A stretch of 43,951 bases of DNA from NCBI GenBank assembly GCA_947462765.1, contig CANHQK010000014.1, forward strand, positions 1 through 43,951, read 5' to 3'. The position numbers were made by a program, and so were the translations under genes. Source of the stretch: Bdellovibrionales bacterium. Its GTDB lineage: Bacteria > Bdellovibrionota > UBA1018 > CAIMNF01. This document shows, one piece after another, positions 7,164 to 41,485 of this stretch. The notes under the pieces were generated by a model that searched no databases, was not told where the DNA came from, and worked only from the letters and a program-made list of their open reading frames with translations. How positions within the stretch are numbered: the first letter of the stretch is position 1; every line of letters starts with the position of its first letter.

Positions 7164-7169
7164 TAAGGT
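7164..7169 (+). promoter_or_regulatory. -10-like box 9 nt before the phosphoesterase start (leaderless candidate)
   Basis: TG-A-TAAGGT (extended -10 form) with only 9 nt between the box and ATG 7179, and no Shine-Dalgarno in that gap. Transcription would begin at or next to the ATG. Confidence 0.4.
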
Positions 7170-7178
7170 GATTTCACC

Positions 7179-8294
7179 ATGCGTCGTCTGATCCCACTGT
7201 TATTCATGGGGCTCCTGGCCACCTATCTGGTGCGATCGTTACTGGCTCCCTTCCAAGAGGTTTCCAGAGCCGGGTACCTCTTCATGCTGACCCTGGTTCT
7301 GGTATTTTTCGCGGCACAACTCTGGTTGTTCCTGGTGTTTTTCAGGGCCGAGGCTGATGAACCGCTTTTTGCCGAAACCACACTGAAGTCCCTCGCATTC
7401 CACGGAATGGGACTCACGAGCTTTTTGCTCACGTTCACAGCGATCCGGGACTTGGTCCGGTTACCGGCAGCCTTGGCCGGCGAGGGATACGAGCTGAGTG
7501 GATGGGGCTCATCAGGAGCCGTAGTCCTGGCTACCGCCGGTTGCTATGTCTATGGCCTCTGGAATGCGCGCTTCCGCGTGGTGACCCGCACCCTTCCGTT
7601 TTCTTCTCAAGTGAGGGCTCGGATGGTCCAATTGAGTGACATGCACCTCGGGACCGGGCCCGGACTCGAGCAGATCCGTGCCCAAGTGGACCGGGTGATG
7701 GAATTGAAGCCCGATTTGATCGTGCTCACCGGTGACATCATCGATGGGGATGTCAAATTTCTCGAGGCCGAACTCAGAGAACTTTCACGTCTGCGCGCCC
7801 CCTATGGGACCTACTTTGTTCTCGGGAACCACGAGTGCTATTGGGGCCACGGGAAATCAATCGAAGCCATGCTCCGAATCGGCATACGCCCTTTGGTGAA
7901 TGAGGGAACTGAAATCAAGATCGGGGACCGAACGCTCTTTCTGGCCGGAACAGGTGATCCCGCAATGGAGTGGTTCGGAGGGCCGGCGCCGGAAGTGCCC
8001 ACCCCTTCCCCTCACGCTGACTACAAGGTCCTTCTTGCCCATCAGCCGGGAATCGCCGCCCGTGCGGAGGCACTCGGATACAACCTTCAATTGTCGGGAC
8101 ACACCCATGGAGGACAGTTCTTCCCTTGGAACCTCATGGTTCGTTGGGTTCACCGGCACCATGGTGGACTCTCGCGCCAAGGTCCGCTCGAGGTCTATGT
8201 TAATCAGGGAACAGGATACTGGGGCCCTCCGATCCGTCTCGGTACATCGAGTGAAGTGAGTGAGATCCTGCTCGGGGGAGAAGCTTCGTCATGA
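7179..8294 (+). CDS. membrane-anchored calcineurin-like metallophosphoesterase
   Basis: A 371-residue protein with three to four N-terminal membrane segments (about 4-22, 32-52, 70-88, 108-125), then a YkuE-type phosphoesterase domain. Metal-site motifs are LSDMHLG, TGDIID, GNHECYWG, LLAHQPG and GHTHGGQ, a complete set for a dinuclear metal centre. YkuE-like enzymes act on phospho- or lipid-linked substrates at the membrane; the substrate here is not known. The last 4 nt overlap the start of the ABC-F gene (ATGA), so the two are translationally coupled. The start has no Shine-Dalgarno but a near -10-like box. Confidence 0.88.
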   Translation: MRRLIPLLFMGLLATYLVRSLLAPFQEVSRAGYLFMLTLVLVFFAAQLWLFLVFFRAEADEPLFAETTLKSLAFHGMGLTSFLLTFTAIRDLVRLPAALAGEGYELSGWGSSGAVVLATAGCYVYGLWNARFRVVTRTLPFSSQVRARMVQLSDMHLGTGPGLEQIRAQVDRVMELKPDLIVLTGDIIDGDVKFLEAELRELSRLRAPYGTYFVLGNHECYWGHGKSIEAMLRIGIRPLVNEGTEIKIGDRTLFLAGTGDPAMEWFGGPAPEVPTPSPHADYKVLLAHQPGIAARAEALGYNLQLSGHTHGGQFFPWNLMVRWVHRHHGGLSRQGPLEVYVNQGTGYWGPPIRLGTSSEVSEILLGGEASS

Positions 8295-10198
8295 GCATGC
8301 TCGAGATCCGTCGCCTCGGAAAACACTACGGCCCTAAAACCCTGTTTGAAAACGTTGACCTGAATCTGAACGACCGTCAGCGGGTTGCCCTGCTCGGTTC
8401 GAACGGGGCAGGCAAGAGCACGCTGATCCGGATGATACTCGGGCAAGAGCAACCGGACCATGGAGAAATCCGCCTCCGGAAACACCTGCGAATCGGTCAT
8501 CTGGCCCAGGAGCTTCACCCGTCGAGCAGTCGATCGCTCCGGGACGAAGTGATGCGACTCGACGGACGGCGGGATGAGATTCTTCTGGCTAAGAAGGATT
8601 GTGAAGAACAGATGACTCTCCGGCAGGACGAGTCACTCTTGAGGGAGTACGCCCGAATCCTCGAAGAATACGACCGCCTGGATGAATACCGTCTGCCTGC
8701 CCGGGCTGAACGCATTCTCGAGGGGATGGGGTTCAAAAATACGGACTTCGACCGTCCACTCTCGGAGTTCAGCGGAGGTTGGCTCATGCGAGCCGCCCTC
8801 GCCCGGATCCTGTTGCTCGGGCCCGACCTTCTGATTCTCGACGAACCCACTAACCACCTGGATTTGGAGTCACTCCTCTGGCTTGAGGAGTTTCTGCAAG
8901 AATATCCCGGATGCGTCTTGCTCGTGAGCCACGATCGGGCGTTCTTGAACCGTTTGGTCGAATCGGTCTGGGAAATCGACCACCAGGAGATCCGGGTCTA
9001 CGCCGGGAACCTCGACGATTTCGTAGTCCAAAAAGAAGAGCGCCTGAGAATGCTCGAGGCGCAAAGAGCAGGACAGGATGCGAGGATCGCCGAGCTTCGC
9101 TCATTTGTCGAACGTTTCGGGGCCAAGGCCACCAAGGCTCGCCAGGCCCAGAGCCGGATGAAGCAGATCGAAAAACTTGAGGCCAATCGAATCGAGATCG
9201 CCGGCCCCGAGCGAGAAGTGGGATTCGGCTTTCCCCCCTGCTCCCAAAGTGGACGTGAGGTGCTTTTTTTGAAAGATGCCGGAATGGAGTTCCCAGGACG
9301 GAAGCTGTTCTCGGGCCTCGACTGGATCATTCAAAGGGGATCGAGAACAGCCATTGTCGGCGCTAATGGCGCCGGAAAGACCACGCTACTCCGGGCACTG
9401 GCTGGTAAACTCCCGATCACCTCGGGGGGGCTCCGCCTCGGACATGGGGTTCAGATCGGCTTTTATTCGCAGCTCCAGGCTGAAACCCTCGACTTCAGGA
9501 AGACGATTCTCGAGGAGCTTGAAGACGCAGCTCCTCAATTGGAGCTATCTCGAATCCGCGGAATTGCGGGAGCATTTCTCTTCACCGGAGAAGACATCCA
9601 CAAGCCCATCCGTGTCCTTTCGGGAGGCGAAAAAGCCCGGGTCGCCCTGGCCCGCCTGCTGTTGACGCCGCACAACTTTTTGATCCTGGACGAGCCGACC
9701 AACCACCTCGATGCCACCAGCCGCGCGGTCTTGCTCGAGGCCTTGATGGAATACGAGGGAACGCTCTGCGTGGTGTCGCACGATCGCGAATTCGTGGGCC
9801 CTTTGGCAGATCGCCTGCTCGAGATGACCGGTTCGGAAGCGGTCCCTCTGGTGATGAATTACGAGGAGTACGTCAAAAAGAAGACCGGAGAAGCTCGGGA
9901 ACGGGTCAGACCTCCCTCGACCGCACCCAAGACGGAGCCGAAGAAAGAGTCCAAATCAACACGGCCATCCAACAATCAGATCATCGCATGGAGAAAAGAA
10001 ATCGAGGAACGTGAGCGTCGCATCGAGGCTCTCGAGGCACGCTTGAATGAAATCAACGACCTTTTGGCCAATGGGGAACTCCATTCGGACCCCTCGGGGT
10101 TAAGAGGCCTGATCGAGGAACAGACCCGGGCTCAAACAGAACTGGATGAGTGCATGCTCCGTTGGGAAGAGCTCGGAACTTTCCTTTCCGGACTGTGA
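8291..10198 (+). CDS. ABC-F family ATPase (Uup/YheS-like)
   Basis: Soluble ABC protein of 635 residues with two nucleotide-binding domains and no membrane domain. NBD1: Walker A GSNGAGKST (about 36-44), signature LSEFSGGW, Walker B LLILDEPTNHLD. The ABC-F linker follows, then NBD2: GANGAGKTT, VLSGGEKAR, FLILDEPTNHLD. A C-terminal charged coiled-coil (about 565-630) resembles the tail of Uup and YheS, which have almost the same length. ABC-F proteins bind ribosomes and rescue or tune translation; some protect against antibiotics. The linker and tail favour a housekeeping translation factor over a resistance protein, but this is not certain. It is coupled to the upstream phosphoesterase by a 4-nt overlap. 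Confidence 0.9.
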   Translation: MSMLEIRRLGKHYGPKTLFENVDLNLNDRQRVALLGSNGAGKSTLIRMILGQEQPDHGEIRLRKHLRIGHLAQELHPSSSRSLRDEVMRLDGRRDEILLAKKDCEEQMTLRQDESLLREYARILEEYDRLDEYRLPARAERILEGMGFKNTDFDRPLSEFSGGWLMRAALARILLLGPDLLILDEPTNHLDLESLLWLEEFLQEYPGCVLLVSHDRAFLNRLVESVWEIDHQEIRVYAGNLDDFVVQKEERLRMLEAQRAGQDARIAELRSFVERFGAKATKARQAQSRMKQIEKLEANRIEIAGPEREVGFGFPPCSQSGREVLFLKDAGMEFPGRKLFSGLDWIIQRGSRTAIVGANGAGKTTLLRALAGKLPITSGGLRLGHGVQIGFYSQLQAETLDFRKTILEELEDAAPQLELSRIRGIAGAFLFTGEDIHKPIRVLSGGEKARVALARLLLTPHNFLILDEPTNHLDATSRAVLLEALMEYEGTLCVVSHDREFVGPLADRLLEMTGSEAVPLVMNYEEYVKKKTGEARERVRPPSTAPKTEPKKESKSTRPSNNQIIAWRKEIEERERRIEALEARLNEINDLLANGELHSDPSGLRGLIEEQTRAQTELDECMLRWEELGTFLSGL

Positions 10199-10216
10199 TC
10201 GGGACTTTGATCCGGA

Positions 10217-10945
10217 TCAATTCCGCGCAAGTTTTCGGGTCAGATTGAGCGTATTCTTCCAGGCAATGGCGCTCTGAAGCTTGGAATCACCCTTCATCTT
10301 GAATCCTGAATAAAGAGCGATGTAGCGCTTCATCACCGCTTGCACGTATTCCTTCGGCTTCTTGTTTTCTTTCAGCATTTGACGGAGCTTCTTCGGACCC
10401 AAGTTGTAAGCCGAGAGGTACAGACGGCTCGAGGAGTCGAACTGGTTGCGAAGCTTATCCAAAAGAGCGGCACCAATCCAGATATTGGTTTCGGGGTCAT
10501 AGAGAGACGCTTCACCCTCATAGTCAATTCCATAAAGTCCGGCAATCCAAGCAGCGGTACTGGGACGGATCTGCATCAGACCGATCTCTCCCACTCCACC
10601 CTTCCGACGAGGATTGAAACTGCTCTCGTTCTGGATCACCGCCATCAAAAAGACCGGGTCGAGCTCGAACTCACCGGAAGCCTCTAGAATCGCGGATGCA
10701 ATCACCTGGGCATCCTTCTGATGGGCCTTCGGAAGGAACTTGCGGGTGGTGGCGGTCACAAACCCGGAGAGCTCGGAAGCGCTCTCGTTCGCCTTCAGCA
10801 CTCTCTTTTTATAGGCGCCGCCGAGGAGCTCTTTGGCATGATTCAGCCGAATGGCTACCGAAGCTGGCACCCTCGGTGCAGCCTCAGCCATTAAACTGAA
10901 ACCAGTCATCAATACCACCAGTTGTACGAGCATCATGTTCCGCAT
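10217..10945 (-). CDS. exported lytic transglycosylase (SLT family)
   Basis: A 242-residue periplasmic enzyme that cleaves the MurNAc-GlcNAc bond of peptidoglycan to give 1,6-anhydro products. Signal peptide about 1-22 (MRNMMLVQLVVLMTGFSLMA, cleaved after AEA). The SLT domain shows MAVIQNESSFNP with catalytic Glu107, GEIGLMQIRPSTA, the conserved AAYNLG-type stretch (SAYNLGP) and a C-terminal YV-x-x-VMKRY. The start at 10945 gives a normal signal peptide; the frame runs to 11056 but adds a non-signal leader. It has no strong Shine-Dalgarno. It converges on the ABC-F gene. Confidence 0.88.
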   Translation of the reverse strand: MRNMMLVQLVVLMTGFSLMAEAAPRVPASVAIRLNHAKELLGGAYKKRVLKANESASELSGFVTATTRKFLPKAHQKDAQVIASAILEASGEFELDPVFLMAVIQNESSFNPRRKGGVGEIGLMQIRPSTAAWIAGLYGIDYEGEASLYDPETNIWIGAALLDKLRNQFDSSSRLYLSAYNLGPKKLRQMLKENKKPKEYVQAVMKRYIALYSGFKMKGDSKLQSAIAWKNTLNLTRKLARN

Positions 10946-11118
10946 GACTGGATGTATTTCAAGGTTCGGGCCAATTCCGCCCCCTGGAAAATCGCCAACT
11001 TGGAGGACTGCCACTCGGAGTGGACGACCACCCCCTCGACACTGACCATCCGCCATACAGCCTCCACCACCCCCCTTGACCCGCCCGAGCCCCGACTCAA
11101 TCCGAATGATTGACTCCC

Positions 11119-11514
11119 TCAGGCCCGACGTTGGATTTCAATCCGGCTTTTCCTACGGGGTTCGACCACCTCACTGCGTTTCAAGGCCAGCAACAGCGCT
11201 GCCAACAATCCGATCACCAATGCGGGGATCCCGTTTCCTCCAATGATAAAGAGATGGGTCAGGATGGCTCCGGCCATAGTCATCAGAATGAGTGCTGCCC
11301 CCATTGCGCTGTAAACATTCGAGAACATGAGGACCCCGGCCAATACCTCAATCGCTCCTACCACTACTCTGAGCCACTGACCGATTCCGATCTCCTGGAA
11401 CATCCTCACCATGGAGTCCACCGAGGTGAGCTTGGCCAAACCCACCGAAATCATCACCACAGCCAATAGAACCTGCACAATCCACTGCGTCCCGACTTTT
11501 AACTTACTTTTCAT
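11119..11514 (-). CDS. DoxX-family membrane protein
   Basis: A 131-residue protein with four hydrophobic segments (about 10-28, 44-64, 67-87, 90-110), the size and pattern of DoxX/DoxD-like inner membrane proteins. The motif VGLAKLTS...F-EIGIGQWLRVVVGAIEVLAG is typical. DoxX proteins are linked to thiol or sulfur redox reactions, but no catalytic role can be given here. The start at 11514 follows GGAGGG with 7 nt spacing; the longer frame to 11634 would run into the divergent selD start region. The C-terminal tail is basic and cytoplasmic. Confidence 0.82.
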   Translation of the reverse strand: MKSKLKVGTQWIVQVLLAVVMISVGLAKLTSVDSMVRMFQEIGIGQWLRVVVGAIEVLAGVLMFSNVYSAMGAALILMTMAGAILTHLFIIGGNGIPALVIGLLAALLLALKRSEVVEPRRKSRIEIQRRA

Positions 11515-11589
11515 ACACGACCCTCCATTCCGGAAGTGAGCAATCCACGTGCCTGATTCTCCTTGCACCCTGTAAATCTCAAATGGAAA

Positions 11590-11598
11590 TGCTATACT
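11590..11598 (+). promoter_or_regulatory. extended -10 box 6 nt before selD (leaderless candidate)
   Basis: TGC-TATACT (11590-11598), an extended -10 match with TATACT. The ATG at 11605 follows after 6 nt, so +1 would fall on or beside the A of the ATG. No Shine-Dalgarno is present. Confidence 0.5.
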
Positions 11599-11604
11599 GC
11601 ATTC

Positions 11605-14199: not shown

Positions 14200-14206
14200 T
14201 CATTCC

Positions 14207-16099
14207 CTACTTCCCGAATACCACTGTCTCAAGAATGATCAGCAAAATTCCGATGATCGAGCCTCCGGCAATCACACCGGCGCACAAGGTCTCGGAGTTC
14301 TCGACGAAAACCTTGTGACCGGTGCTTTCCGGATTCTTGAACCGCTTCGAACAATACCAGAAGAAAAATGCCCCGAGCGCCATCGCCAGTGAGTCCGTGA
14401 AGCGGAGGACAAACGCCAGCCCGAGCCCGATCGCAGAAACCGGGAACTTCCCCTTGGTTCTTTGATTCAAAAACTCGAGAACAATCCCGAGAACAGCTCC
14501 GACCAAGGCTGCGATCTGAGCGGTCGGATGAAGGGCCGACAACCCTTGGGTCAGTGCTTCAGCCACCGCTTTCCAAATCGTGGCCCCCGGCATCGGAAGC
14601 TGGTCGCTGGTCAGCAAGGAGATGTCACCCTTGAAGATGAGATAATAAACCGGTACCGAAACCGCCGCTCCCGCAAAAATCCCGAGCACATGTCCCACCG
14701 CTTGCTGACGGGGCTTGGCCCCGAGCATGTAGCCCGGCTTGATGTCCATGAGCAGGTTCGAAGCGTTCAATGCCACTTCGGAATTGATTCCTGCCGCCAT
14801 GATGTTTGTCGGCACATTTCCTGGCGAGATTTGCGAATAAGTCAGCTGGGTCAGCTTACCGAGAGCCCCACCCGGAGTGATTGAAGTGAGCCCGGTCGAA
14901 GTCACCGCAATCAGCGTGAATACGAACACAAGCGGAATGGCTATGATGCCTTCCAGAATCCCGAACTCGAACCACGCGTGCCCGAGCCAGACCATCACAG
15001 CGCCCACTAAGGGAATCCCGATCAGGGAAACCTTGCCCGGAAGCTCAATGGCCTCGAGGGGGTCGGTGGTTTTAGGACCTTTGCGTACCATCTTTTTGAA
15101 GGCCGCCACAAAAACCTGGGGCTTCGAGAAAAAAGAATAGAGCGAGGACGTGGTCATGAGCGCAGCCCCGAACCAGAGTGACCACATGGTGATCGCCTTG
15201 AAGGTGGCGGAGGGAATCACCCCTTCACGGATCAGAAACGGCGCTAAAATCCCGTAATTCACAATCGCACCGATGATGAGCGAGGCCCCGGTCTTGGTGC
15301 CCATGAGACCCCCGGTTCCGAGCATCACGATCGAGGTGTCGATCCGGATGGTCAGATCCTTCAGAGGGGTTCCCAACAAGGTAGGAGTGAAGAACCTGTA
15401 CACGAGGTCATCGAGATGCTCGGGGATGGCCAAAAATCCAACCTTGAGCGACTGCATGACTTTCTCGTTCCGAAGGGTTTCGAGCAGGGCTGAAACCCCA
15501 GCTCCGTAGCCGAGGATCTTGGCCTTGAAGAGCCCGTCACTCTTACCGTTGGGATTCCCCTCGTCCGCATGGAGGTTCTGCAGGACCACTCCGGCCGCAT
15601 AGCCTTCAGGAAAAGGCAACTGTTCGTCGTTGATGAAACGCTTTTTCAGTGGGAACGCGTACAGCACACCCAGAATTGACAGCAGGATGATCCACACCAT
15701 CGTGTGCTCCATCGGGACTACCTTGCCGGTCACGAGCATGTATGCGGGAATGGCACTGATGAGCGGGGCCGTCATGTAGCCCGCACTGGTCGCTACCGAC
15801 TGCATGGCATTGTTCTCGAGAATGGTCATCTCTCGTCCGAGCTTCAGCTTTGAGATGAGCTTGAACATCGCAAACGAAAGAATCACGGAAGAGATTCCCA
15901 CCCCGAGTGTCCAGCCGGTCTTGATCCCGACATACAGATTGGTGAGAGAGAGCACTCCGCCGAGCAGCATCCCGGTCAGGGCTGAACGGAGATTCAACTG
16001 GGGCATGTCGCCTCGATAAACCTCATTCAACCACCAACGGTCTTTCTGCTCGAGGGTCCAATCACGCACCTGTTCGGGAGACAGTTCCTTAAGTTCCAT
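14207..16099 (-). CDS. OPT-family oligopeptide transporter (first copy)
   Basis: A polytopic inner membrane protein of 630 residues with about 14-16 hydrophobic segments. N-terminal LTGMLLGGVLSLTNLYVGIKTGWTLG, LPFPEGYAAGVV and MAAGINSEVALNASNLLMDIKPGYMLG are typical of the prokaryotic branch of the OPT superfamily, which moves peptides or metal chelates by proton coupling. The soluble N-terminus ELKELSPEQVRDWTLEQKDRWW precedes the first membrane segment. Substrate not assignable. It converges with the PPC lipoprotein gene (7-nt gap) and is divergent from the TauE-like gene. A second OPT gene lies at 33.5 kb. Confidence 0.85.
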   Translation of the reverse strand: MELKELSPEQVRDWTLEQKDRWWLNEVYRGDMPQLNLRSALTGMLLGGVLSLTNLYVGIKTGWTLGVGISSVILSFAMFKLISKLKLGREMTILENNAMQSVATSAGYMTAPLISAIPAYMLVTGKVVPMEHTMVWIILLSILGVLYAFPLKKRFINDEQLPFPEGYAAGVVLQNLHADEGNPNGKSDGLFKAKILGYGAGVSALLETLRNEKVMQSLKVGFLAIPEHLDDLVYRFFTPTLLGTPLKDLTIRIDTSIVMLGTGGLMGTKTGASLIIGAIVNYGILAPFLIREGVIPSATFKAITMWSLWFGAALMTTSSLYSFFSKPQVFVAAFKKMVRKGPKTTDPLEAIELPGKVSLIGIPLVGAVMVWLGHAWFEFGILEGIIAIPLVFVFTLIAVTSTGLTSITPGGALGKLTQLTYSQISPGNVPTNIMAAGINSEVALNASNLLMDIKPGYMLGAKPRQQAVGHVLGIFAGAAVSVPVYYLIFKGDISLLTSDQLPMPGATIWKAVAEALTQGLSALHPTAQIAALVGAVLGIVLEFLNQRTKGKFPVSAIGLGLAFVLRFTDSLAMALGAFFFWYCSKRFKNPESTGHKVFVENSETLCAGVIAGGSIIGILLIILETVVFGK

Positions 16100-16149
16100 A
16101 TTCGAATCAGTGTAACGAGTGCCCGAGGGGGTGACAAGTCCTCAAACCC

Positions 16150-16178
16150 TTGACTGAAACTCCCGGGAGAGAGATACC
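16150..16178 (+). promoter_or_regulatory. sigma70-like promoter ending 6 nt before the TauE-like start
   Basis: TTGACT (16150-16155), 17-nt spacer, GATACC (16173-16178), then 6 nt to ATG 16185. An overlapping TACCTT lies at 16175-16180. Transcription would start at or near the ATG (leaderless candidate). Confidence 0.5.
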
Positions 16179-16184
16179 TTTCAC

Positions 16185-16556
16185 ATGACCATATTACTGT
16201 TACTCATGGGCGTTGCCGCCGGAGTTCTTGCCGGTCTCTTCGGGATCGGGGGGGGAGTCGTGCTGGTTCCGGCCATGGTGTATGGACTCAAGTTCAGCCA
16301 GAAGACCGCCAGTGGAGTCTCACTCGCGGCCATGCTCCTGCCCGTCGGCGCCCTGGGTGTGTATCACTATTTCAAATCAGGGCTCATCACAACCGAACAC
16401 CTGAAATTCAGTCTTTGGATCGCTCTCGGAATGTTTCTCGGTGCTTTTTTCGGAGCGAAACTCGCCGTACATCTGCCTGTGAAAACTCTCCAGAAAGGGT
16501 TTTCATTGCTCCTGGTATTCGCCGCAGTCCGCCTGTGGTTACAGTCGTCTGAATAA
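16185..16556 (+). CDS. half-size TauE/SafE (DUF81) membrane protein
   Basis: A 123-residue protein with three to four membrane segments. The GLFGIGGGVVLVPAMV motif near the N-terminus (about 17-32) is the hallmark of the TauE/SafE anion-exporter family; residues 40-120 hold the rest of one repeat. Full-length members are about 250 residues with two such repeats, so this is a single-repeat form that would need to dimerise. There is no sign that a second half was lost: the next gene starts on the other strand 12 nt away. Substrate (sulfite, sulfonate or other organic anion) unknown. Confidence 0.85.
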   Translation: MTILLLLMGVAAGVLAGLFGIGGGVVLVPAMVYGLKFSQKTASGVSLAAMLLPVGALGVYHYFKSGLITTEHLKFSLWIALGMFLGAFFGAKLAVHLPVKTLQKGFSLLLVFAAVRLWLQSSE

Positions 16557-16568
16557 GCCCTATCCGTA

Positions 16569-19026: not shown

Positions 19027-19039
19027 GCCCCTCGTCGTA

Positions 19040-22257: not shown

Positions 22258-22866
22258 TCAGGTCTGGAACAAGCCCTTCCGGTTGGCGCCCAAAAAACAT
22301 GCATCTGTCAGAAGGCGCGGAGCGGGAGGAAGACGCTCGATCTGCCTGGGACTGTAAATCTCCCACGCCGTTTCGTCGTAAAACTCTAGACTCAAGTCTC
22401 CGACATCGCCCGTCCCGTTTTTCCAATCCCAGCGCTTCAAGTACTTGTTGAGTCGAATCGGACCGGCCCAGGCCACCAGACTCATTTGGCCCTTGGTGTT
22501 GAAATAAAACGGAAAATAACTCAAGGCCAATGCCTCAACCGACCGGTAAACGGGAGATCTCCAGCCGAGCAAAGTGGTATTGCTCTTCCCGACCGCTCCC
22601 CAGAGTCCCTTTTCCTTGAACAGTGCCACCACATGATCATCATCCCGATGCGAACGCAGGTGGAGCATCTTGGGTTCATGCCCGATTCCCTCCAACAGAT
22701 GTGCGGCCAACAGGCCGCCCTCCATGCAATGAGCTGCGCCCTGCTTGAGCACCCCGGAGGCCGATGCGCAATTCGAACCCGGATTGTAGGGAATCTCATG
22801 CACAAACTCTTGAATCATCCAGGGGGTCTTCAACTGCCGGAGCCTCGTTTGCTGTTTTCTCTTCAT
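22258..22866 (-). CDS. transglutaminase-like protein, function unknown
   Basis: A 202-residue cytoplasmic protein. Residues 43-95 show the transglutaminase-like pattern: GAAHCMEGGLLAAHLL (Cys47 at the start of a helix), then LHLRSHRDDDHVVALF (His78) and GLWGAVGKSN. Cys and His are in the order of the papain/transglutaminase fold; a third residue is not clear. It is probably a hydrolase or an inactive binding relative. It is the first gene of the run TG-like, DUF302, methyltransferase, mgtE. It lacks a Shine-Dalgarno but has TATACT on the minus strand at 22874-22879, 7 nt before its ATG. Confidence 0.75.
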   Translation of the reverse strand: MKRKQQTRLRQLKTPWMIQEFVHEIPYNPGSNCASASGVLKQGAAHCMEGGLLAAHLLEGIGHEPKMLHLRSHRDDDHVVALFKEKGLWGAVGKSNTTLLGWRSPVYRSVEALALSYFPFYFNTKGQMSLVAWAGPIRLNKYLKRWDWKNGTGDVGDLSLEFYDETAWEIYSPRQIERLPPAPRLLTDACFLGANRKGLFQT

Positions 22867-22873
22867 GATAATG

Positions 22874-22879
22874 AGTATA
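22874..22879 (-). promoter_or_regulatory. -10-like TATACT 7 nt before the transglutaminase-like start
   Basis: TATACT on the minus strand, then CATTATC and the ATG at 22866. No Shine-Dalgarno is present. It is another candidate leaderless start and drives the four-gene run towards mgtE. Confidence 0.5.
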
Positions 22880-22948
22880 AATCAATCAAACCGATTTAAA
22901 ACCTGAGTTTTTTCTACAACTTTTCGCTTCAAGGGCTGAACCTTCTTT

Positions 22949-22956
22949 GGTAGAAT
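22949..22956 (+). promoter_or_regulatory. extended -10 box 8 nt before the alpha/beta hydrolase start
   Basis: GG-TAGAAT preceded by T (TGG-TAGAAT form) with TAGAAT at 22951-22956, then 8 nt to ATG 22965. No Shine-Dalgarno is visible in the gap. Confidence 0.45.
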
Positions 22957-22964
22957 CCGCCACG

Positions 22965-23912
22965 ATGCTCACCTTCCTTACCTGGATTGTATTTCTTCTC
23001 CCTGCTTCACATGCTGAAATCCCCGATCGGGTCGAGGTGAAAGAGCGGTTGGATGTCCACTACGGAAAACATGCCCGCCAGATCTTCGACCTTTGGACTC
23101 CGGCGCAGAAGAAAAGCGCCCCCCTCGTGGTGTACATTCATGGTGGCGGTTGGCAGGCAGGAAGCAAGGACGAAATGAGAAAAGCCCCGGCGACCCGGGC
23201 CCGTTACCTCAATTCCGGCTTCGCTTTTGCAGCCATCAACTACCGGTTCTTGAAGCATGCGCCCCTGCAAACCATCATGCAGGAGGATATCGCCGGATTC
23301 ATCCAATACATCCGTCTCCATGCCCGCCAATATGGAATTGATAAATCCCGCATCTATGCTTATGGCTACAGTGCGGGGGGAAGCGCGAGCCTCTGGCTCG
23401 CGAGTCACGACGACCTGGGCTCTCCCGATTCGAAAAAGCGCAGTAAAAGGGAATCAACGCGGGTCCAAGGAGCGGGGCACATGAATGCCCAGGTGTCTTA
23501 CGATTACTATGTCTGGTACAGAATCTTCGGCAAAGAAATGACCGATCGGTTCATGAAGGACCAGGTTTATTCAAGGTATCATTTCGATTCAGCGGCCGAT
23601 CTCGACACCCCACAGGGCATCGAGGTCAGGAAATACCTCGATATGTACGGCAATCTTTCATCAGATGACGCCCCCATGCTGTTCTGGAATAACCTCGATG
23701 ACGCCCCGGACAGGGATCACAATCACTTTGTACACTCGCCACGTCACACCCGTGAGCTCTCAATTCGTGCAACCGAACTTGGCATTCCCCATCGGACTGA
23801 GATCCGCGTGGCCGGCCAACCCACACCGAACGGTCACGAGAGCGCATTCTTGTTTTTCAAGGAACTCTCAGTACAGCAAAAACGGAACGCGCCGAAGCCT
23901 GAACTCCGTTAG
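22965..23912 (+). CDS. exported alpha/beta hydrolase (esterase/lipase-like)
   Basis: A 315-residue protein with signal peptide 1-17 (LTFLTWIVFLLPASHA). Oxyanion motif HGGGW (59-63), nucleophile GYSAGG with Ser136, a late Asp in the DDAPDRDH region and a late His in NGHESAFLF: a complete hydrolase triad. This is the HGGG carboxylesterase (BD-FAE-like) group. It may remove ester groups from sugars; this is suggested by its neighbours, not shown. The start is ATG 22965; a TTG 18 nt upstream is in frame but inside the promoter box. Its 3' end overlaps the convergent namZ-like gene by 45 nt, both ends coding. Confidence 0.82.
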   Translation: MLTFLTWIVFLLPASHAEIPDRVEVKERLDVHYGKHARQIFDLWTPAQKKSAPLVVYIHGGGWQAGSKDEMRKAPATRARYLNSGFAFAAINYRFLKHAPLQTIMQEDIAGFIQYIRLHARQYGIDKSRIYAYGYSAGGSASLWLASHDDLGSPDSKKRSKRESTRVQGAGHMNAQVSYDYYVWYRIFGKEMTDRFMKDQVYSRYHFDSAADLDTPQGIEVRKYLDMYGNLSSDDAPMLFWNNLDDAPDRDHNHFVHSPRHTRELSIRATELGIPHRTEIRVAGQPTPNGHESAFLFFKELSVQQKRNAPKPELR

Positions 23913-27361: not shown

Positions 27362-27390
27362 ACCCTAGCAGAGCCCGCCCCTTGACGCAA
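27362..27390 (-). promoter_or_regulatory. sigma70-like promoter 7 nt before the GH1 start
   Basis: On the minus strand: TTGCGT (27390-27385), 17-nt spacer ending in TGC, TAGGGT (27367-27362), then 7 nt to the ATG. Both hexamers and the spacer length fit; a leaderless mRNA is predicted. It makes the glycan operon independent of the outer-membrane protein gene upstream. Confidence 0.55.
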
Positions 27391-28443: not shown

Positions 28444-29178
28444 TCACTTCCCTTTCAAACGTTTGGCCAATGTTGAGAAAAGGGTCTTGGCCCATGACGG
28501 TCTTTGGTAGATGACCTTCTCAAACACAGCAGGCTGGATCTCGACCAATTCCGAATCCACAACCGCCGATACGGTGGCCATTCGTGCTTCTTCATTGAAA
28601 TAAGCCATCTCGCCGACAAACTCCCCTTCACCGATCTCCCCCAGCAGCCGGGGAGCACCGGTTCCGTCCCGACGGGTCGCACGGAGCAAGCCCTTTTTGA
28701 CAATGTAAATCTGTTTGGAGGTGTCCCCCTCCTGAATCAGAATATCCCCGGCCTTCAGGTTTCGAACTGCGTACTGCTGGGCCTCGGACTTGAATGCATG
28801 CTCGACCTTGCCCAAAACCTGTGTCCATTCCTCAAGGGTGGAAAGTTGATCCACAAACAACAATCGTCCGAGTGTGACTCCGTCCCGCTCCCGATCGGTA
28901 CGGGCCTGACCGCCCATTGCAATCACCACCATTTTCGACGCCTCATCGGAGAAAATGGTGTCGAGAATCTGCCCTACGCGCCCTTTTCCCAACTCATAAT
29001 CCGTGACCAGGAGCTGAGGCGGAGCATTCTTGATTTTGATCAGAGCTTCCATGTAATCAGAGGCCGTGTAAATGACCGCCTCCGGCATCCTTTCCTGGAT
29101 CCAACCTCTCAGACGCTTCTTCTTGGACTCGTCCGCGCTGGCAAGCAGGAAAAACTTTTTTCCCTCAGTTTTGACCAT
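28444..29178 (-). CDS. receiver-like plus cyclic-nucleotide-binding protein
   Basis: A 244-residue cytoplasmic protein in two parts. Residues 8-125 look like a response-regulator receiver: an acidic pair in SADESKK, LLVTDYEL with the phospho-acceptor-like Asp near 60, and a final helix. Residues 135-240 are a cNMP-binding beta-roll (NLKAGDILIQEGDTSKQIYIVKKG, GEFVGEMAYFNEEARMATVSA). There is no DNA-binding domain, so it is not a classic Crp regulator; it may sense a nucleotide and control a partner. The GEMAYFNEEARMATV stretch lacks the canonical Arg of the cAMP phosphate loop in the usual register, so the ligand is uncertain. Confidence 0.75.
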   Translation of the reverse strand: MVKTEGKKFFLLASADESKKKRLRGWIQERMPEAVIYTASDYMEALIKIKNAPPQLLVTDYELGKGRVGQILDTIFSDEASKMVVIAMGGQARTDRERDGVTLGRLLFVDQLSTLEEWTQVLGKVEHAFKSEAQQYAVRNLKAGDILIQEGDTSKQIYIVKKGLLRATRRDGTGAPRLLGEIGEGEFVGEMAYFNEEARMATVSAVVDSELVEIQPAVFEKVIYQRPSWAKTLFSTLAKRLKGK

Positions 29179-29188
29179 AGACGAAATC

Positions 29189-29194
29189 AGTTTA
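29189..29194 (-). promoter_or_regulatory. -10-like TAAACT 10 nt before the cNMP gene
   Basis: On the minus strand, GTGACA and an 18-nt spacer precede TAAACT, then 10 nt to ATG 29178. No Shine-Dalgarno. Weaker than the other candidates because the distance is longer. Confidence 0.4.
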
Positions 29195-29250
29195 GCCGAG
29201 AGTCCGACCGAATGTCACAACTTTTCCTCCATTTTTTACACAAACCGTGA

Positions 29251-29256
29251 TAAAGT
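29251..29256 (+). promoter_or_regulatory. extended -10 box 8 nt before a secreted protein gene
   Basis: TG-A-TAAAGT with TAAAGT at 29251-29256, 8 nt before ATG 29265. The gap (TCGCCCCC) has no Shine-Dalgarno. Leaderless candidate. Confidence 0.45.
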
Positions 29257-29264
29257 TCGCCCCC

Positions 29265-29654
29265 ATGAAGTCACTCTTATCGACCCTTCCACTACTGGCT
29301 CTTTGCCTGACTTTTTCTGCATCCGTGCAAGCCCATGACAACGCCCGAACCGGGATCGAGTGCAAATATCGGGACGGTTGGTACATTCAACACCTGATCG
29401 AGATCAATTGTTTGGAGACGGGGTGCGCCTACCGGATCGGGACCCGACAGGCCACAGTCGAGAGCGGTCAAGTGAGCCGCGTGAACCGCTCCGATTCTCA
29501 AGACAGTCTGAACGAGTTTGAGATCCAATTTGAAACCGGGACCGCCATTCGGGTGAAACATACCGTTGGAAAGCGCTACGAAGGGATCCTCGACTTCGGC
29601 TCCGGTAACTCCGGTTACCATGAGCAGATCCGCTGCAAAGTCGAATCACGCTGA
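29265..29654 (+). CDS. small secreted protein, unknown
   Basis: A 129-residue protein with signal peptide about 1-23 (LLSTLPLLALCLTFSASVQA). The mature part is about 106 residues with four Cys, likely two disulfides, and beta-rich character (EFEIQFETGTAIRVKHTV). I do not recognise a family. Start at ATG 29265. No terminator is seen after its stop. Confidence 0.62.
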   Translation: MKSLLSTLPLLALCLTFSASVQAHDNARTGIECKYRDGWYIQHLIEINCLETGCAYRIGTRQATVESGQVSRVNRSDSQDSLNEFEIQFETGTAIRVKHTVGKRYEGILDFGSGNSGYHEQIRCKVESR

Positions 29655-29740
29655 ACGCCCTGACACACCGCCGATGTAAATTCTCCAGCGGCATTCCGAC
29701 ACCGTTCCCTCTATACCGCTACTTAAGTCCACGCGGGCCC

Positions 29741-29754: not shown

Positions 29755-29770
29755 ATTTCTTCCGATCAGT

Positions 29771-29789: not shown

Positions 29790-29812
29790 GGATTCCAACA
29801 CAGGAGGTGTAC

Positions 29813-30022: not shown

Positions 30023-30032
30023 GTGTTGCCAC

Positions 30033-31334: not shown

Positions 31335-31336
31335 GC

Positions 31337-31963: not shown

Positions 31964-31995
31964 TCCAACATCCTTTCTCTATTTGATGTGTGCTG

Positions 31996-32024
31996 AGTGT
32001 AACGTCTGTGCTCGAGGCCTTCAA
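31996..32024 (-). promoter_or_regulatory. sigma70-like promoter of the yceI gene
   Basis: Minus strand: TTGAAG (32024-32019), 17-nt spacer, TACACT (32001-31996). It gives a leader of about 26 nt with a Shine-Dalgarno, the ordinary layout. Confidence 0.5.
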
Positions 32025-32060
32025 TCACAAATGAGCTGGCTCCGGACCCCAACCGCAGGT

Positions 32061-32066
32061 TAAACT
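32061..32066 (+). promoter_or_regulatory. -10-like TAAACT 7 nt before the pirin gene
   Basis: TAAACT (32061-32066), then ACACGTC and the ATG at 32074. No Shine-Dalgarno. Leaderless candidate. Confidence 0.4.
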
Positions 32067-32073
32067 ACACGTC

Positions 32074-33464: not shown

Positions 33465-33470
33465 ATCAGG

Positions 33471-35342: not shown

Positions 35343-35384
35343 GGGGGGGATCCTATCCGACCCCCCAACTGAAAACAATCGGGA

Positions 35385-35858: not shown

Positions 35859-35876
35859 AAGTACTCCGAGGGGCGC

Positions 35877-35904
35877 ATCTTATCAAAAAACGCAGGTAGG
35901 TCAA
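35877..35904 (-). promoter_or_regulatory. sigma70-like promoter next to an AT-rich tract
   Basis: Minus strand: TTGACC (35904-35899), 16-nt spacer ending TGA, TAAGAT (35882-35877). Upstream of it (35905-35940 in plus coordinates) is an AT-rich tract that could act as an UP element. It would give a leader of about 11 nt before a GGAG ribosome binding site at 35863-35866, a short leader. It lies in the 144-nt gap between two divergent genes. Confidence 0.55.
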
Positions 35905-36002
35905 TGTTTATTTACATAAAATTTATTCAATAAAATTAACCCTCGGACTGTGTCGGCATTTACACACTTCACGCCTCGACCTCTACGAGAGACATTTATA
36001 AG

Positions 36003-37268: not shown

Positions 37269-37273
37269 AGCAA

Positions 37274-37306
37274 AACCGGCGCCCCCAGTTGAAGGGAGCG
37301 CCGGTT
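37274..37306. terminator. terminator between convergent genes
   Basis: Arms AACCGGCGC (37274-37282) and GCGCCGGTT (37298-37306), 9 bp plus partly paired C/G inside. On the minus strand the second arm is followed by TTGCTTT-like sequence, so it best serves the minus-strand gene at 37327-37848. On the plus strand the tail (CAGTT) is poor. Confidence 0.7.
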
Positions 37307-37326
37307 CAGTTACAGATCAGTCCGAT

Positions 37327-37848
37327 TCACTCAGCCGAGAAAAACGGAAAACCGTTATCCATGATGTAGCGGATGGTGTAATACGTGACCGCGCCCACAA
37401 TCACCACACCGGCAACGATCAGAATCGGATTCTGACCGCCCTTGCCACCGAGGAAGTTGGCTCCAGTGGACTTCGAGTTTTCGAGGAACTTCATCGCCAA
37501 CTGGCTGGCAGCATCAGGAGAGATCGCTCCCTCTTTCATGGCAAGCAGCAGACGATCGAAGTCGATCCGGGTTTCCCGATCGAGGATGTGATTCCTGACG
37601 TAATCCATCATCTCGATGGGGGTGACTCCATTGGCTTCCAAAACAGAAAGCTGGTCCTTCAGACGAACCAGGGCGATCTCCTTGGAAGCTGGATCGTTGG
37701 CATCGAGGTTCACGCTGGCAGAATAGCGGAATTGCTCGAAGGCTTTTGCGATCATGTCATGATGATCCGCTTGGGTGGCAACAGGGGCTGCAAAAGCCGA
37801 ATTACACACGAGAGCCGCAACCATCAATGCACTGAATACTTTCAACAT
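37327..37848 (-). CDS. exported protein with C-terminal membrane segment, unknown
   Basis: A 173-residue protein with signal peptide 1-20 (LKVFSALMVAALVCNSAFA) and a C-terminal hydrophobic segment (ILIVAGVVIVGAVTYYTIRYIM, about 142-163) preceded by a Gly-rich linker (NFLGGKGGQ). The middle is helical and charged. It looks like a periplasmic helical domain held to the inner membrane. No family recognised. AAGGAG lies 7 nt before the ATG. A perfect 7-bp inverted repeat lies just upstream (37865-37880). Confidence 0.65.
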   Translation of the reverse strand: MLKVFSALMVAALVCNSAFAAPVATQADHHDMIAKAFEQFRYSASVNLDANDPASKEIALVRLKDQLSVLEANGVTPIEMMDYVRNHILDRETRIDFDRLLLAMKEGAISPDAASQLAMKFLENSKSTGANFLGGKGGQNPILIVAGVVIVGAVTYYTIRYIMDNGFPFFSAE

Positions 37849-37864
37849 ACGATCTCCTTTTTCT

Positions 37865-37880
37865 CTCAGATCAATCTGAG
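37865..37880. promoter_or_regulatory. 7-bp inverted repeat in the leader of the 37848 gene
   Basis: CTCAGAT-CA-ATCTGAG, a perfect dyad with a 2-nt spacer, 9 nt from the Shine-Dalgarno. The rest of the 259-nt gap from 37849 to 38107 holds no gene that I can support; it has poly-A/T runs near 38050-38080. The dyad may be an operator or a small hairpin. Confidence 0.4.
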
Positions 37881-38107
37881 GAGACCGTTTTTAGACAGAG
37901 TCGGCACGAAGTTCCAGATGCGGTGCTTTTCCCGCAAGGGGGACGAAAAAACTCTCGGGAGCTTGCCCCGGGGCCCGGATACGCCTGAATCCATTCCCGA
38001 ACCCCGACCTTCCTGTAAACAGGGTGGCAATGCGTCCCACCCGAGATCAAAAAAAAATCACCGGGACCGAAAAAACCGATGGCTGGTCGGGTCATCCGGC
38101 AAAGAAT

Positions 38108-38183
38108 TGGAGCGGCGGACGGGGTTCGAACCCGCGACCTCGAGCTTGGGAAGCTCGCACTCTACCAACTGAGCTACCGCCGC
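38108..38183 (-). tRNA. tRNA-Gly(CCC)
   Basis: 76 nt on the minus strand. The acceptor stem GCGGCGG (38183-38177) pairs with CCGCCGC (38118-38112), then T and an encoded CCA end (38110-38108). D arm GCTC-AGTTGGTA-GAGT, anticodon stem CGAGC/GCTCG with loop TTCCCAA (anticodon CCC), variable loop AGGTC, T arm GCGGG-TTCGAAC-CCCGT with one G-T pair. All conserved positions are present. Confidence 0.95.
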
Positions 38184-38234
38184 ATTCTCCTACGGAACAC
38201 AACCGAGGGTAGTCAAACCCTCTCAGATTTGCAA

Positions 38235-39209
38235 TCAGTCCAGAACCGAGACCTGCTTGGAGTTGAAATCGACCAATAGGAGTTTGAATGCTGACCAGCG
38301 GACCACCGGGATGGCTTCGATCATGCGGTGACACCCCTGCTCTCCCGGACCCCAACTGGAGTCGCGGTAGCAAACCGGCTCCACGCGGGATTGACTTTCC
38401 AACCCCTCCAATGCCGAGGCAAACCGAGAATCGATCTCCATCAAAAACCCGCGGAGCGCTCCGGGTATCAAGAGATCATTCATCACCACGACCTTGCCGG
38501 ACCCATCGCTGAAAACCAGATCTTTCGGTCCCCTGACAACCGAAGAACGGACATTTCTTTCGCGCGCATCGAGAAACCCTAGCTTACCCACCTTTACCCG
38601 CAACTCTTGGGCGATTTTGAGACCGTTTTTCGAGTCGAGGCTCACCGCTCCGCGAGACACGGCATCCACCGAAAAAGACTGCCTCGGAAATGAACTCCGA
38701 TCCGGAAGACCGAGCACTGCCTGATCCATGCGAACCGTTTCCTGATCGTGAACGAAGCCGCTCAGGACAAAAGACCGCTGGTGATCAAAAAAAGAAAAAC
38801 CATTCATCGGTGCCGGACTGAGTTCTGAAACCTTCAAGGGTTTGAAACCCGGAAGCCCCGGCAACCTCAAGTCAGCCATGGGGTCCCCGCATGGGATCCG
38901 TTTCACCTGGTTCAGTCCGGAAAGGAAGGAAACTTCCAAACAACGCTTCTCAGCCCTGTATCGCCGCTTGGACACCCGGCACTCCGCATCGAAAAAATAG
39001 GGGGTGACAGGGACGCCCAGCTCATAGGACATCAACTCCCGGGACAGAATGCCGCCTTTCGTGCGGTAGGGCTGATTCCGGGCCTTTTCAGACAGGACTT
39101 TCAGTTGCTCGGCCTGGAGGATCAACTCCCCGCTCCAAGCGCTTTGAGCCCCAATAAACATACAGAAAACAGCCATGAACATTAGTTGATGTGTCATCAT
39201 GCGGGCCAT
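38235..39209 (-). CDS. exported protein, unknown (324 residues)
   Basis: A 324-residue protein with signal peptide about 1-26 (LMFMAVFCMFIGAQSAWS). The mature part is mixed with several Cys pairs (AECRVSKRRYRAEKRC, RIPCGDP, VCYRDSSWGPGEQGCH), so disulfides are likely. I do not recognise a family. Three ATG codons lie close together (39209, 39200, 39197). The minus-strand sequence TTGCGC and a GATACAT-like box just upstream of 39209 would favour one of the inner ATGs as a leaderless start. It is divergent from the PepSY gene (81 nt). The tRNA gene lies downstream, 51 nt away. Confidence 0.6.
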   Translation of the reverse strand: MARMMTHQLMFMAVFCMFIGAQSAWSGELILQAEQLKVLSEKARNQPYRTKGGILSRELMSYELGVPVTPYFFDAECRVSKRRYRAEKRCLEVSFLSGLNQVKRIPCGDPMADLRLPGLPGFKPLKVSELSPAPMNGFSFFDHQRSFVLSGFVHDQETVRMDQAVLGLPDRSSFPRQSFSVDAVSRGAVSLDSKNGLKIAQELRVKVGKLGFLDARERNVRSSVVRGPKDLVFSDGSGKVVVMNDLLIPGALRGFLMEIDSRFASALEGLESQSRVEPVCYRDSSWGPGEQGCHRMIEAIPVVRWSAFKLLLVDFNSKQVSVLD

Positions 39210-39289
39210 GTATCACAAAATGACGCTTAGCGCAAGTTTTTTCGGCGCAAGATATGCTACGACTAAAGTCCCAATACAAGGAGCTCCTC

Positions 39290-39547
39290 ATGAATCTGCT
39301 TTTTTTGACTGTCACTCTTGGCCTGATGACCTACCCCGCCCACGCAAAAAAGAATTGCACCACTGAGCCCAAAGAAAAGTGGATGAGTGTCGAGGATTTC
39401 AAGAAACAGAAAGAGGCGGAAGGATTCCAGATCCGGAAATTCAAGCAGCCGGGAACTTGCTACGAAATCTACGGGAAAGACAAAACCGGGAAAAAAGTAG
39501 AAGTGTATTTCAATCCGGTTGACGGGAGCGTAGTCAAATCCAAGTGA
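39290..39547 (+). CDS. small secreted PepSY-type protein
   Basis: An 85-residue protein with signal peptide 1-19 (LLFLTVTLGLMTYPAHA). The mature part is a single PepSY-like domain: W-x-SVEDFKKQKEAEGFQIRKFK...CYEIYGKDKTGKKVEVYFNPVDGSVV, with the ending pattern D-P-x-x-G-x-V of PepSY_2. Such proteins can bind or inhibit peptidases, or act in metal and membrane systems. AAGGAG precedes the ATG at a good distance; TATGCT (39253-39258) is a possible -10. The stop overlaps the GTG start of the porin gene by 4 nt. Confidence 0.75.
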   Translation: MNLLFLTVTLGLMTYPAHAKKNCTTEPKEKWMSVEDFKKQKEAEGFQIRKFKQPGTCYEIYGKDKTGKKVEVYFNPVDGSVVKSK

Positions 39548-40752
39548 AGCATCGTTCACTCTGGTTCAAAATCACACTTTCGTTACTGGCAGCCCTGGCT
39601 CCAACGTCAGGGTTCGCGGACGGAACGGGTCCGTTTGATCCGGTTTCTTTTGAAGAAGGGATCGTATTCTCCCATCCTGAGGGCCGCTACAAAACGGCGC
39701 TACGATTCCGCATTCAGAACCTGCTTGAGTTGAGATCGTTCTCCGGGAGCGACTTGGGAATCGAAGAGATTCGGGGCCGGGTCCGCCGGGCCCGAATCCG
39801 GATGTCGGGCCATGTGGTGAACCCGAGACTCACCTACCAGCTTCAACTCTCCCTCAGCAGGGAGGACCAGGACTGGAACGAATCCCAGTTTCCGAACGTA
39901 CTCAGGGATGCAAACTTCACTTATGCCCTCATCCAGGACCCGGATCAGACTCTTTCGATCTCATTCGGCCAGGGAAAGCTCCCCGGAAATCGCCAAAGGG
40001 TGATCTCCTCCGGGGATCTGCAATTCGCCGATCGTTCTCTGGTGAACCGGACCTTCAATATCGATCGGGACTTCGGAATCCAAGGGCATTACAAGAGAGA
40101 ACAATGGAATCTCAAGGGCTCTCTTTCGAGTGGTGAAGGGCGAAATCTTTCCTTCCCCTCCGACTCGGGGCTGGCTTGGGTCATCCGCGCAGAGGTCCTT
40201 CCTTTCGGATCCTTCATCGGTAAAGAGGATTATGTCGAGGGGGATCTCAAACATCATGAGCAGCTCCGTCTGAGCCTCGGAATGACCCGGGCGGTTTTCA
40301 AAAACTCGAACCGGGCCGGGGGTACGATCGGGACCTTCTTCACCACGACCGGTGACCCGAACACGGGTACCCCCATCCGGAGCGATCAGACCGTTCACCT
40401 ATTCGATCTGATCGCCAAATACCGAGGCTGGTCCCTCTTGGCTGAACTTGCCGACCGGAGCTCACCCAACGGTGTGTTGAGTCCGACCCAGGCTCTATTC
40501 GAGGGAATGGGCTGGATGGTCCAATCCGGCTACCTCTTCGCCGACCGATGGGAGGTTGTGGGCCGATTTGCTCGGATCAGTCCTGAGTCAAAATCCAAAG
40601 TGGACTCCCGAAACACACTGCTTGCCCAGTCGACCGCGGGGCTCAACTATTATCTGGACGGACACCGGGTCAAGGCGCAGATGGACCTGACCCGCCAGTC
40701 CCTGACCGATCCGGCATGGGTGACCCGATTCAACCTCGAAATCGGTATTTGA
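39544..40752 (+). CDS. OprO/OprP-type porin
   Basis: A 402-residue outer membrane protein of the phosphate-selective porin group. It starts at GTG 39544, which overlaps the PepSY stop (GTGA). Signal peptide about 1-25 (KITLSLLAALAPTSGFA). The early RGRVRRARIRMSGHVVNPRLTYQLQLSL is the classic OprP motif. Sixteen or so short strands follow, and it ends in NLEIGI, not Phe. The family forms trimeric anion channels; the ion here is not known. Translation is coupled to the small PepSY protein, a pairing that may be functional. Confidence 0.83.
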   Translation: MKHRSLWFKITLSLLAALAPTSGFADGTGPFDPVSFEEGIVFSHPEGRYKTALRFRIQNLLELRSFSGSDLGIEEIRGRVRRARIRMSGHVVNPRLTYQLQLSLSREDQDWNESQFPNVLRDANFTYALIQDPDQTLSISFGQGKLPGNRQRVISSGDLQFADRSLVNRTFNIDRDFGIQGHYKREQWNLKGSLSSGEGRNLSFPSDSGLAWVIRAEVLPFGSFIGKEDYVEGDLKHHEQLRLSLGMTRAVFKNSNRAGGTIGTFFTTTGDPNTGTPIRSDQTVHLFDLIAKYRGWSLLAELADRSSPNGVLSPTQALFEGMGWMVQSGYLFADRWEVVGRFARISPESKSKVDSRNTLLAQSTAGLNYYLDGHRVKAQMDLTRQSLTDPAWVTRFNLEIGI

Positions 40753-40802
40753 ATTGACCGGACCCTTGCGGATTTGCTACTCCCTCCCGCATCGGAGTCC
40801 AC

Positions 40803-41444
40803 ATGAAATCCAATCTTTTTAGGTGTTTTTTTGCCGTCGTAACCCTGCTCTTTTCCCTTCCCGCATTTAGCCAGACTCCGATCCGGGATGGCTTTACCCG
40901 CGACGACCTGAGCTTTCCGTTTCAGTGGAAAGCTAATCCTCTGAAGCCAGGAGTGGTGTTGGATCAGATCATTGATCTCGATCCTTTCGATGCTCCCGGA
41001 AAAACCCAAGCGGACTTCACTGAATTCCGGATCATTTTCGGATACGGCAGCTTGTCGATTTTTGATGCACTCGGAGTGAACGAAGTAGCGGGTCTCAAGC
41101 GGAGTGATGCCGAAGCCAAAATCCGCGCTCTCGAGGCCGAGGGCAAAAGCGAGAAGGACGGAGCTTTCATCGCTGGTCTCACCAACATCCATGGCCGACA
41201 GATCTTCATGTTCTTCAATCTGAACCGTTTGGCTTCAAGCACTGAATACGCGATCCGCGTTTTAAGTCATGAACCCGTCCACCTGGCCAGATTCCTGATC
41301 ACCACCGAAGCCAAACCGGACGTGGATTATTACAACGATCCCTACGTCACCCTGAATGATGACAACGAGGAATATTTTGCCGAGTCCATCGAGCGTCTGA
41401 CCACTGTCGCACTCGATCGTTATTTCAAAGCAACCCTCCCTTAA
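40803..41444 (+). CDS. secreted protein with HExxH motif, candidate metallopeptidase
   Basis: A 213-residue protein with signal peptide 1-23 (LFRCFFAVVTLLFSLPAFS). Residues 156-160 are HEPVH, a perfect HExxH zinc motif, and a conserved-looking NEEYFAESIERL (188-199) follows 30 residues later, where zincins keep a third ligand Glu. No family is recognised by name. A peptidase is the simplest reading, but an inactive binding role cannot be excluded. GGAG lies 5 nt before the ATG. A TTGACC box (40754-40759) with 17-18 nt spacing to a poor -10 lies upstream. Confidence 0.68.
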   Translation: MKSNLFRCFFAVVTLLFSLPAFSQTPIRDGFTRDDLSFPFQWKANPLKPGVVLDQIIDLDPFDAPGKTQADFTEFRIIFGYGSLSIFDALGVNEVAGLKRSDAEAKIRALEAEGKSEKDGAFIAGLTNIHGRQIFMFFNLNRLASSTEYAIRVLSHEPVHLARFLITTEAKPDVDYYNDPYVTLNDDNEEYFAESIERLTTVALDRYFKATLP

Positions 41445-41473
41445 ACCTGCTTCAGTTTCCCGGTTTTGAAAGA

Positions 41474-41479
41474 TAAACT
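41474..41479 (+). promoter_or_regulatory. -10-like TAAACT 6 nt before the FAD oxidoreductase start
   Basis: GA-TAAACT with TAAACT at 41474-41479 and ATG 41486 after 6 nt. No Shine-Dalgarno. Leaderless candidate. Confidence 0.45.
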
Positions 41480-41485
41480 CGAATC

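Follow-up and report, generated by a model that had tools for sequence, protein, structure and literature searches.

Promoter-like −10 boxes directly before start codons point to a common class of leaderless genes in an uncultured Bdellovibrionota lineage

Leaderless genes preceded by a TANNNT box (TA-led genes) are an established bacterial class in Actinobacteria and Deinococcus-Thermus, as set out in the available part of the survey by Zheng et al. (2011; PMC3160421), and GeneMarkS-2 predictions, as cited in the available part of the StartLink paper (PMC9581028), place leaderless transcription in 21.6% of bacterial species and in up to 40% of transcripts. Here we analyze a stretch of 43,951 nucleotides (nt; positions 1–43951 of contig CANHQK010000014.1, hereafter "the window") from an uncultured relative of the predatory Bdellovibrio within the Bdellovibrionota, in which an initial annotation had listed ten genes with a −10-like box 6–10 nt before a start codon lacking a Shine-Dalgarno sequence (SD), and had proposed that such genes are leaderless and form a common class in this lineage. 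We find that the boxes are very probably the −10 elements of sigma70-type promoters that would give leaderless mRNAs.

The initial annotation had also held that this class was unreported in the lineage. Bdellovibrio was classed in the delta-Proteobacteria in 2011. The open-access literature searched holds no such report by title, but the available part of the 2011 survey counts leaderless genes in 8/33 delta-Proteobacteria genomes (PMC3160421), so the claim can be checked in part only. A transcription start map of B. bacteriovorus, from the same phylum, gives 140 attack-phase promoters, and the word "leaderless" is absent from its main text (Karunker et al. 2013; PMC3627812). The kind of initiation is therefore already known, and its predicted occurrence in a Bdellovibrionota lineage is new as far as open-access titles show. 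As far as the available part of the survey describes them, TA-led genes resemble those of the window's genome in having TANNNT about 10–12 base pairs (bp) before the start codon, no SD and fewer operon-distal genes; here, by comparison, the lineage is Bdellovibrionota and the excess at a spacing of 6 nt is found for ATG only (PMC3160421). The genome also resembles the leaderless species predicted by GeneMarkS-2 in its mixture of promoter-adjacent and SD starts, as the latter are presented in the available part of the source (PMC9581028).

A promoter-like box at operon heads

The source assembly comprises 2.33 Mb in 97 contigs and is 91% complete; its BipA protein has its nearest matches in metagenome-assembled genomes labeled Bdellovibrio sp., Proteobacteria, Bdellovibrionales and Oligoflexia. 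Our sample, 444 kilobases (kb) or 19% of the genome, consisted of the window and twenty 20-kb stretches of that genome, in which a three-periodic Markov model called 432 genes; 415 usable ATG starts remained after dropping those with no ATG by our ATG-only rule, less than 100 nt upstream, or N upstream. Starts at least 30 nt from the upstream gene, or with no upstream gene seen, were taken as first-like (operon-head-like) and the others as inner, and the gap is the number of nt between the TANNNT box and the start codon.

The genome-wide count of TANNNT against shuffled upstream sequence that the initial annotation had proposed was run on this sample and shows clear enrichment at gaps 6–10. 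The box is present at 60/293 SD-less starts in any position (mean of 500 dinucleotide shuffles 11.3, maximum 24) and at 52/184 SD-less first-like starts (mean 8.3, maximum 18), with 9/177 at inner starts (mean 4.0, maximum 12). When gap 5 is included, 61/238 first-like starts carry a box where 14.6 are expected from windows further upstream, and 52 of these 61 have an SD score below 5 (9/61 are at or above it, that at 7179 in the window among them). The class thus amounts to about 19% of operon-head-like starts, (61−14.6)/238, and 26% of divergent heads, (44−8.3)/137, in line with the proposal that it is common. The box is concentrated at operon heads and the SD (GGAG) at inner starts, and many distal operon genes carry an SD. 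A search for the 16S gene that would hold the anti-SD found none in the genome's own assembly and partial copies in 2/12 genomes of the genus; the SD of inner genes implies, by inference, a working anti-SD.

The spacing is sharp: among 123 first-like starts with an SD score below 4, TANNNT occurs 0 times at gap 5, 20 times at gap 6 and 6, 5, 4 and 4 times at gaps 7–10, and 0–4 times at each other gap up to 60. Ranked by enrichment at gap 6, TA...T comes first among 64 XY...Z patterns (27 seen, 1.7 expected). ATG codons behind TANNNT number 63, 80, 61, 54, 45 and 57 at gaps 5, 6, 7, 8, 9 and 10, and 45, 43 and 42 at gaps 12, 15 and 20; the gap-6 totals for GTG (53), TTG (57) and CTG (54) lie within their own ranges at other gaps. 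Because ATG stands out at gap 6 and none of these three does, leaderless starts here appear to need AUG.

Further promoter features emerge in starts selected without them. In 30 starts chosen by TANNNT at gap 6 and ATG alone, positions −35, −34 and −33 are T (80%), T (47%) and G (67%), position −14 is G (70%, an extended −10) and position −1 is C (83%). Because the −35 TTG, the extended −10 G and the C at −1 emerge at these starts, we read them as a sigma70-type promoter whose predicted −10 hexamer spans −12 to −7 and whose predicted +1 is the A of ATG. Unsupervised expectation-maximization (EM) likewise recovers TAgAcT, mostly at gap 6, from SD-less first-like starts and GGAG from inner starts, and no such motif from shuffled sequence. 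A strict pattern (TTG, 19–21 nt, TANNNT, 5 nt, CATG) has 43 matches in the assembly, against 3 when read backwards and 41 over ten control gaps (4.1 per gap; gaps 14–23).

We calibrated the gap profile on two annotated genomes. Leaderless mRNAs were reportedly mapped in Deinococcus deserti by de Groot in 2014, going by the paper's title. In 100 kb of D. deserti plasmid 2, 16/66 annotated first-like starts have a box at gap 5–10 (2.8 expected), with the peak of 7 at gap 6; in 100 kb of Escherichia coli K-12 the figure is 5/65 (9.6 expected). The profile of the D. deserti annotated starts is like that of the window's genome, and that of E. coli is unlike it.

From the motif, its spacing, enrichment and conservation (below) and its preference for ATG, we infer that transcription would start on the A of the start codon at gap 6 and 1–4 nt before the start codon at gaps 7–10, and that the ribosome would take the 5′-terminal AUG without an SD. 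Support for the proposed placement of +1 at the start codon comes from the gap-6 peak, the −35, the extended −10, C at −1 with A at +1, the likeness to D. deserti, the conservation of the box against a diverging background, and box and ATG moving together.

Conservation and spread among relatives

Relatives are labeled G001 and so on, the window's genome being G000; G001 and G009 are the nearest members of the genus (88% and 87% identity in selD). In these two, the box class is kept in all 19 comparisons in which the start was found, and box-less genes gain a TANNNT box in 0/55; this tally excludes 7154, for which neither relative gave a start, and 29265, which fell beyond the cut-offs. Ungapped comparison of 18 gene pairs from the initially listed genes gives identities of 94/108 in the box hexamer, 79/132 in the interval from box to ATG, and 293/480 in the rest to −40. 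In a larger, overlapping ortholog set, box-only starts are kept in 8/10 cases in G001, 9/9 in G009, 3/8 in G002 and 0/3 in G011, with one gain in G002; the kept fraction falls from G001 and G009 to G002 and G011, and therefore the start state turns over with distance. Of the 79 loci in the homolog hit table, L008 and L015 were used in the comparison of window genes, and L013 and L045 in the orthologue-start search (no row).

The turnover can be followed in selD. TANNNT lies 6–7 nt before its ATG in G000, G001, G009, G003 and G004, with TTTAAT in G005; in G011, G002 and G008, TAGAAT, TAGGAT or TACAAT stands 21, 21 and 24 nt before the ATG with AGGAG between, which predicts SD leaders of 15–18 nt. 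For the gene starting at 7179, the nearest ATG in the orthologues of G002, G011, G005 and G003 lies 3–6 codons further in, and in all but G003 this inner ATG has TANNNT 6–7 nt before it. Both patterns are as expected if the promoter-to-start distance sets leader length.

Selenocysteine in homologs of the gene at 22965 was considered and judged unlikely. One TGA had been noted in each of G011, G002 and G008 (L236, L237, L240) beside a selD-like gene; that of the G002 homolog falls at the C terminus, where it resembles a normal stop, and the G011 alignment ended before its TGA. The four best tRNA-Sec-like hits (G004, G003, G010, G009) are tRNA-Ser.

The strict pattern was scanned over 191 genomes of the phylum: 172 have more matches than the per-gap control, 67 of them at least twice as many, and the others have fewer. 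By family (f), the ratios descend from f4 (10.5, one genome) and the window's genus (4.0, 12 genomes) over f2 (2.8, 28) and f13 (2.0, 31) to f15 (1.4, 55), f11 (1.2, 4) and f12 (1.1, one), these ratios being rough since the control gaps may include real leadered promoters and vary with AT content. At the gene level, a first round covered 70–100 kb and 44–103 starts per genome, so that its single-genome numbers are weak; boxes at gap 5–10 were found at 33/151 starts in the genus (10.9 expected), 24/123 in the order (6.9) and 8/54 in G115 (3.6). Larger samples gave 45/160 (10.2 expected) in G045, of the distant family f14, and 29/153 (8.6) in G002. G075, taken as B. bacteriovorus Tiberius, had no excess in its first sample (70–100 kb) and a weak signal when resampled at 500 kb (34/290, 24.8 expected; 12 at gap 6 against 4.2). 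The box signal is thus as strong in one distant family (G045) as in the window's genome, and weak in the putative B. bacteriovorus.

Competing explanations

The promoter reading has to be weighed against three others. The ten initial examples had been picked by eye from a motif with only three fixed bases, and 286 of 12,669 background ATGs in the sample (2.3%) have TANNNT at gap 5–10; chance or selection nevertheless has a negligible probability and was already refuted as an explanation, given the roughly fivefold sample-wide enrichment, unreached in 500 shuffles, and the conservation in relatives. A box acting as an AT-rich translation signal (for example through S1 binding or low structure), while the transcript begins further upstream, has a precedent: the available part of the 2011 survey reports upstream signals that are rich in AT and lack a strong consensus in Bacteroidetes, among other groups (PMC3160421). 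AT-richness fails to explain a specific TANNNT at one spacing that goes with C at −1 and, at promoter distance, a −35 TTG, and the box is far commoner at operon-head-like starts (61/238) than at inner ones (10/177), which makes this explanation very improbable. It is slightly less improbable, though still unlikely, that the box is a promoter but the ATG beside it is untranslated or mis-called, with translation really beginning at a later codon after a short leader: the start calls are computational, and some orthologues, as at 7179, have their nearest ATG 3–6 codons further in. Yet three of those four carry the box at the inner ATG; an SD precedes the next in-frame start in only 2/47 box genes (15/117 SD genes); and the mean coding score straight after the ATG is 1.46 in box genes, matching 1.41 in SD genes, and negative before both. 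In 14 comparisons above 60% identity, substitutions in codons 2–20 of box genes number 51, 19 and 112 at codon positions 1, 2 and 3, a bias toward third positions that is evidence for translation of the region, as distinct from initiation itself.

Several results weigh against leaderless initiation at a promoter-adjacent ATG. Starts rest on our own ATG-only rule and a home-made coding model, and the positive control worked with annotated starts only: on 50 kb of D. deserti the ab initio caller gave 2/23 (1.3 expected), with 0/16 on 50 kb of E. coli, and the start-calling method can under-call. SD-bearing first-like starts are also slightly enriched for the box at gap 6–10 (9/54; shuffle mean 2.3, maximum 8), and EM over all 238 first-like starts returns tAGGAT, which mixes box and SD. 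With gaps of 8–10, +1 precedes the ATG by as much as 4 nt. Among relatives, C at −1 is weaker (0.40–0.67 of small sets), two of the ten G001 orthologues of box genes in the larger set lack the box, and no excess is seen in G012, of another genus in the same family (4/34, 3.0 expected, a small sample), or in G046 (7/45, 9.1 expected). In the window, the start at 7179 is not SD-less: it has an SD score of 6, and the AGGTGA overlapping its TAAGGT box could serve as an SD. The box at 16185, GATACC, departs from TANNNT and has GGAG near −19, with SD scores of 7 in G001 and 5 in G009; at 16185 both the −35 and GATACC are kept in G001 and G009.

Boxes of the window and their wider meaning

All ten initially listed boxes are present at exactly the gaps first given (Table 1), several of them extended and two with a good −35 at 17 nt, as had been described. 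Of the ten starts, those at 7179 and 16185 are ambiguous. An SD is scored at each of the five starts named as SD-led (43086, 31963, 29813, 25996 and 11514), with no TANNNT within 20 nt, and two fitting starts on the minus strand, at 16099 and 35342, had been missed.

Table 1. Promoter-like boxes before start codons in the window (gap in nt; extended, TG precedes the box).
Box	Position	Strand	Gap	ATG	Gene	Remarks
TAAGGT, extended	7164..7169	+	9	7179	metallophosphoesterase	ambiguous; kept in G001, G009
TATACT, extended	11593..11598	+	6	11605	selD-like, AIRS domains	kept in G001, G009
TACACT	16109..16114	-	9	16099	OPT transporter	kept in G001, G009
GATACC	16173..16178	+	6	16185	TauE-like	TTGACT −35 at 17 nt; ambiguous
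TATACT	22874..22879	-	7	22866		
TAGAAT, extended	22951..22956	+	8	22965	BD-FAE esterase-like	
TAGGGT, extended	27362..27367	-	7	27354	GH1	TTGCGT −35 at 17 nt
TAAACT	29189..29194	-	10	29178	cyclic-nucleotide-binding domain	
TAAAGT, extended	29251..29256	+	8	29265		TAACCT at gap 8 in G009; orthologous start not found in G001
TAAACT	32061..32066	+	7	32074	pirin	
TAGGAT	35350..35355	-	7	35342	OPT transporter	kept in G009; no orthologue in G001 stretches
TAAACT	41474..41479	+	6	41486	FAD-binding oxidase	

Divergent leaderless pairs were considered as a special architecture and set aside, as both boxes are present in 9/56 pairs within 200 bp where 6.1 are expected under independence, no clear excess. 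Two such pairs, each with a box at both ends, lie in the wider sample: that at L116:4544-4585 is 40 bp apart, with each −35 region near the other gene's box, and that at L126:12147-12202 is similar, 54 bp apart. Within the window, the string GAAAAGTTGT is common to both divergent, predicted leaderless intergenic regions (22866-22965 and 29178-29265); G001 retains it in both regions and G009 only at 29178, and it could be a shared operator. The divergent called starts at 7154-7179 are only 24 bp apart; that at 7154, for which no start was found in G001 or G009, is probably mis-called. The homolog of the 41486 gene in G001 (C15:4133-5469) aligns as two separate segments (residues 69-478 and 1-40) whose positions overlap, and may be frameshifted or mis-assembled.

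Taken across the phylum, leaderless initiation may be an old and evolutionarily labile program of the Bdellovibrionota, prominent in uncultured lineages from at least two distant branches (the window's order and f14, with G045) and largely lost in the cultivated predator B. bacteriovorus, with genes such as selD switching between leaderless and SD-led states as the distance from a promoter that is kept to the start codon changes slightly; we offer this tentatively, at somewhat less than even likelihood. In this lineage, gene finders that rely mainly on the SD could misplace the starts of about a fifth of operon heads. The mixed leaderless and SD genome plan would extend to a phylum known mostly from its predators, and the selD series, in which the promoter lies at the ATG or 21–24 nt away with an SD within one genus, would provide a natural test of the passage between modes of initiation.

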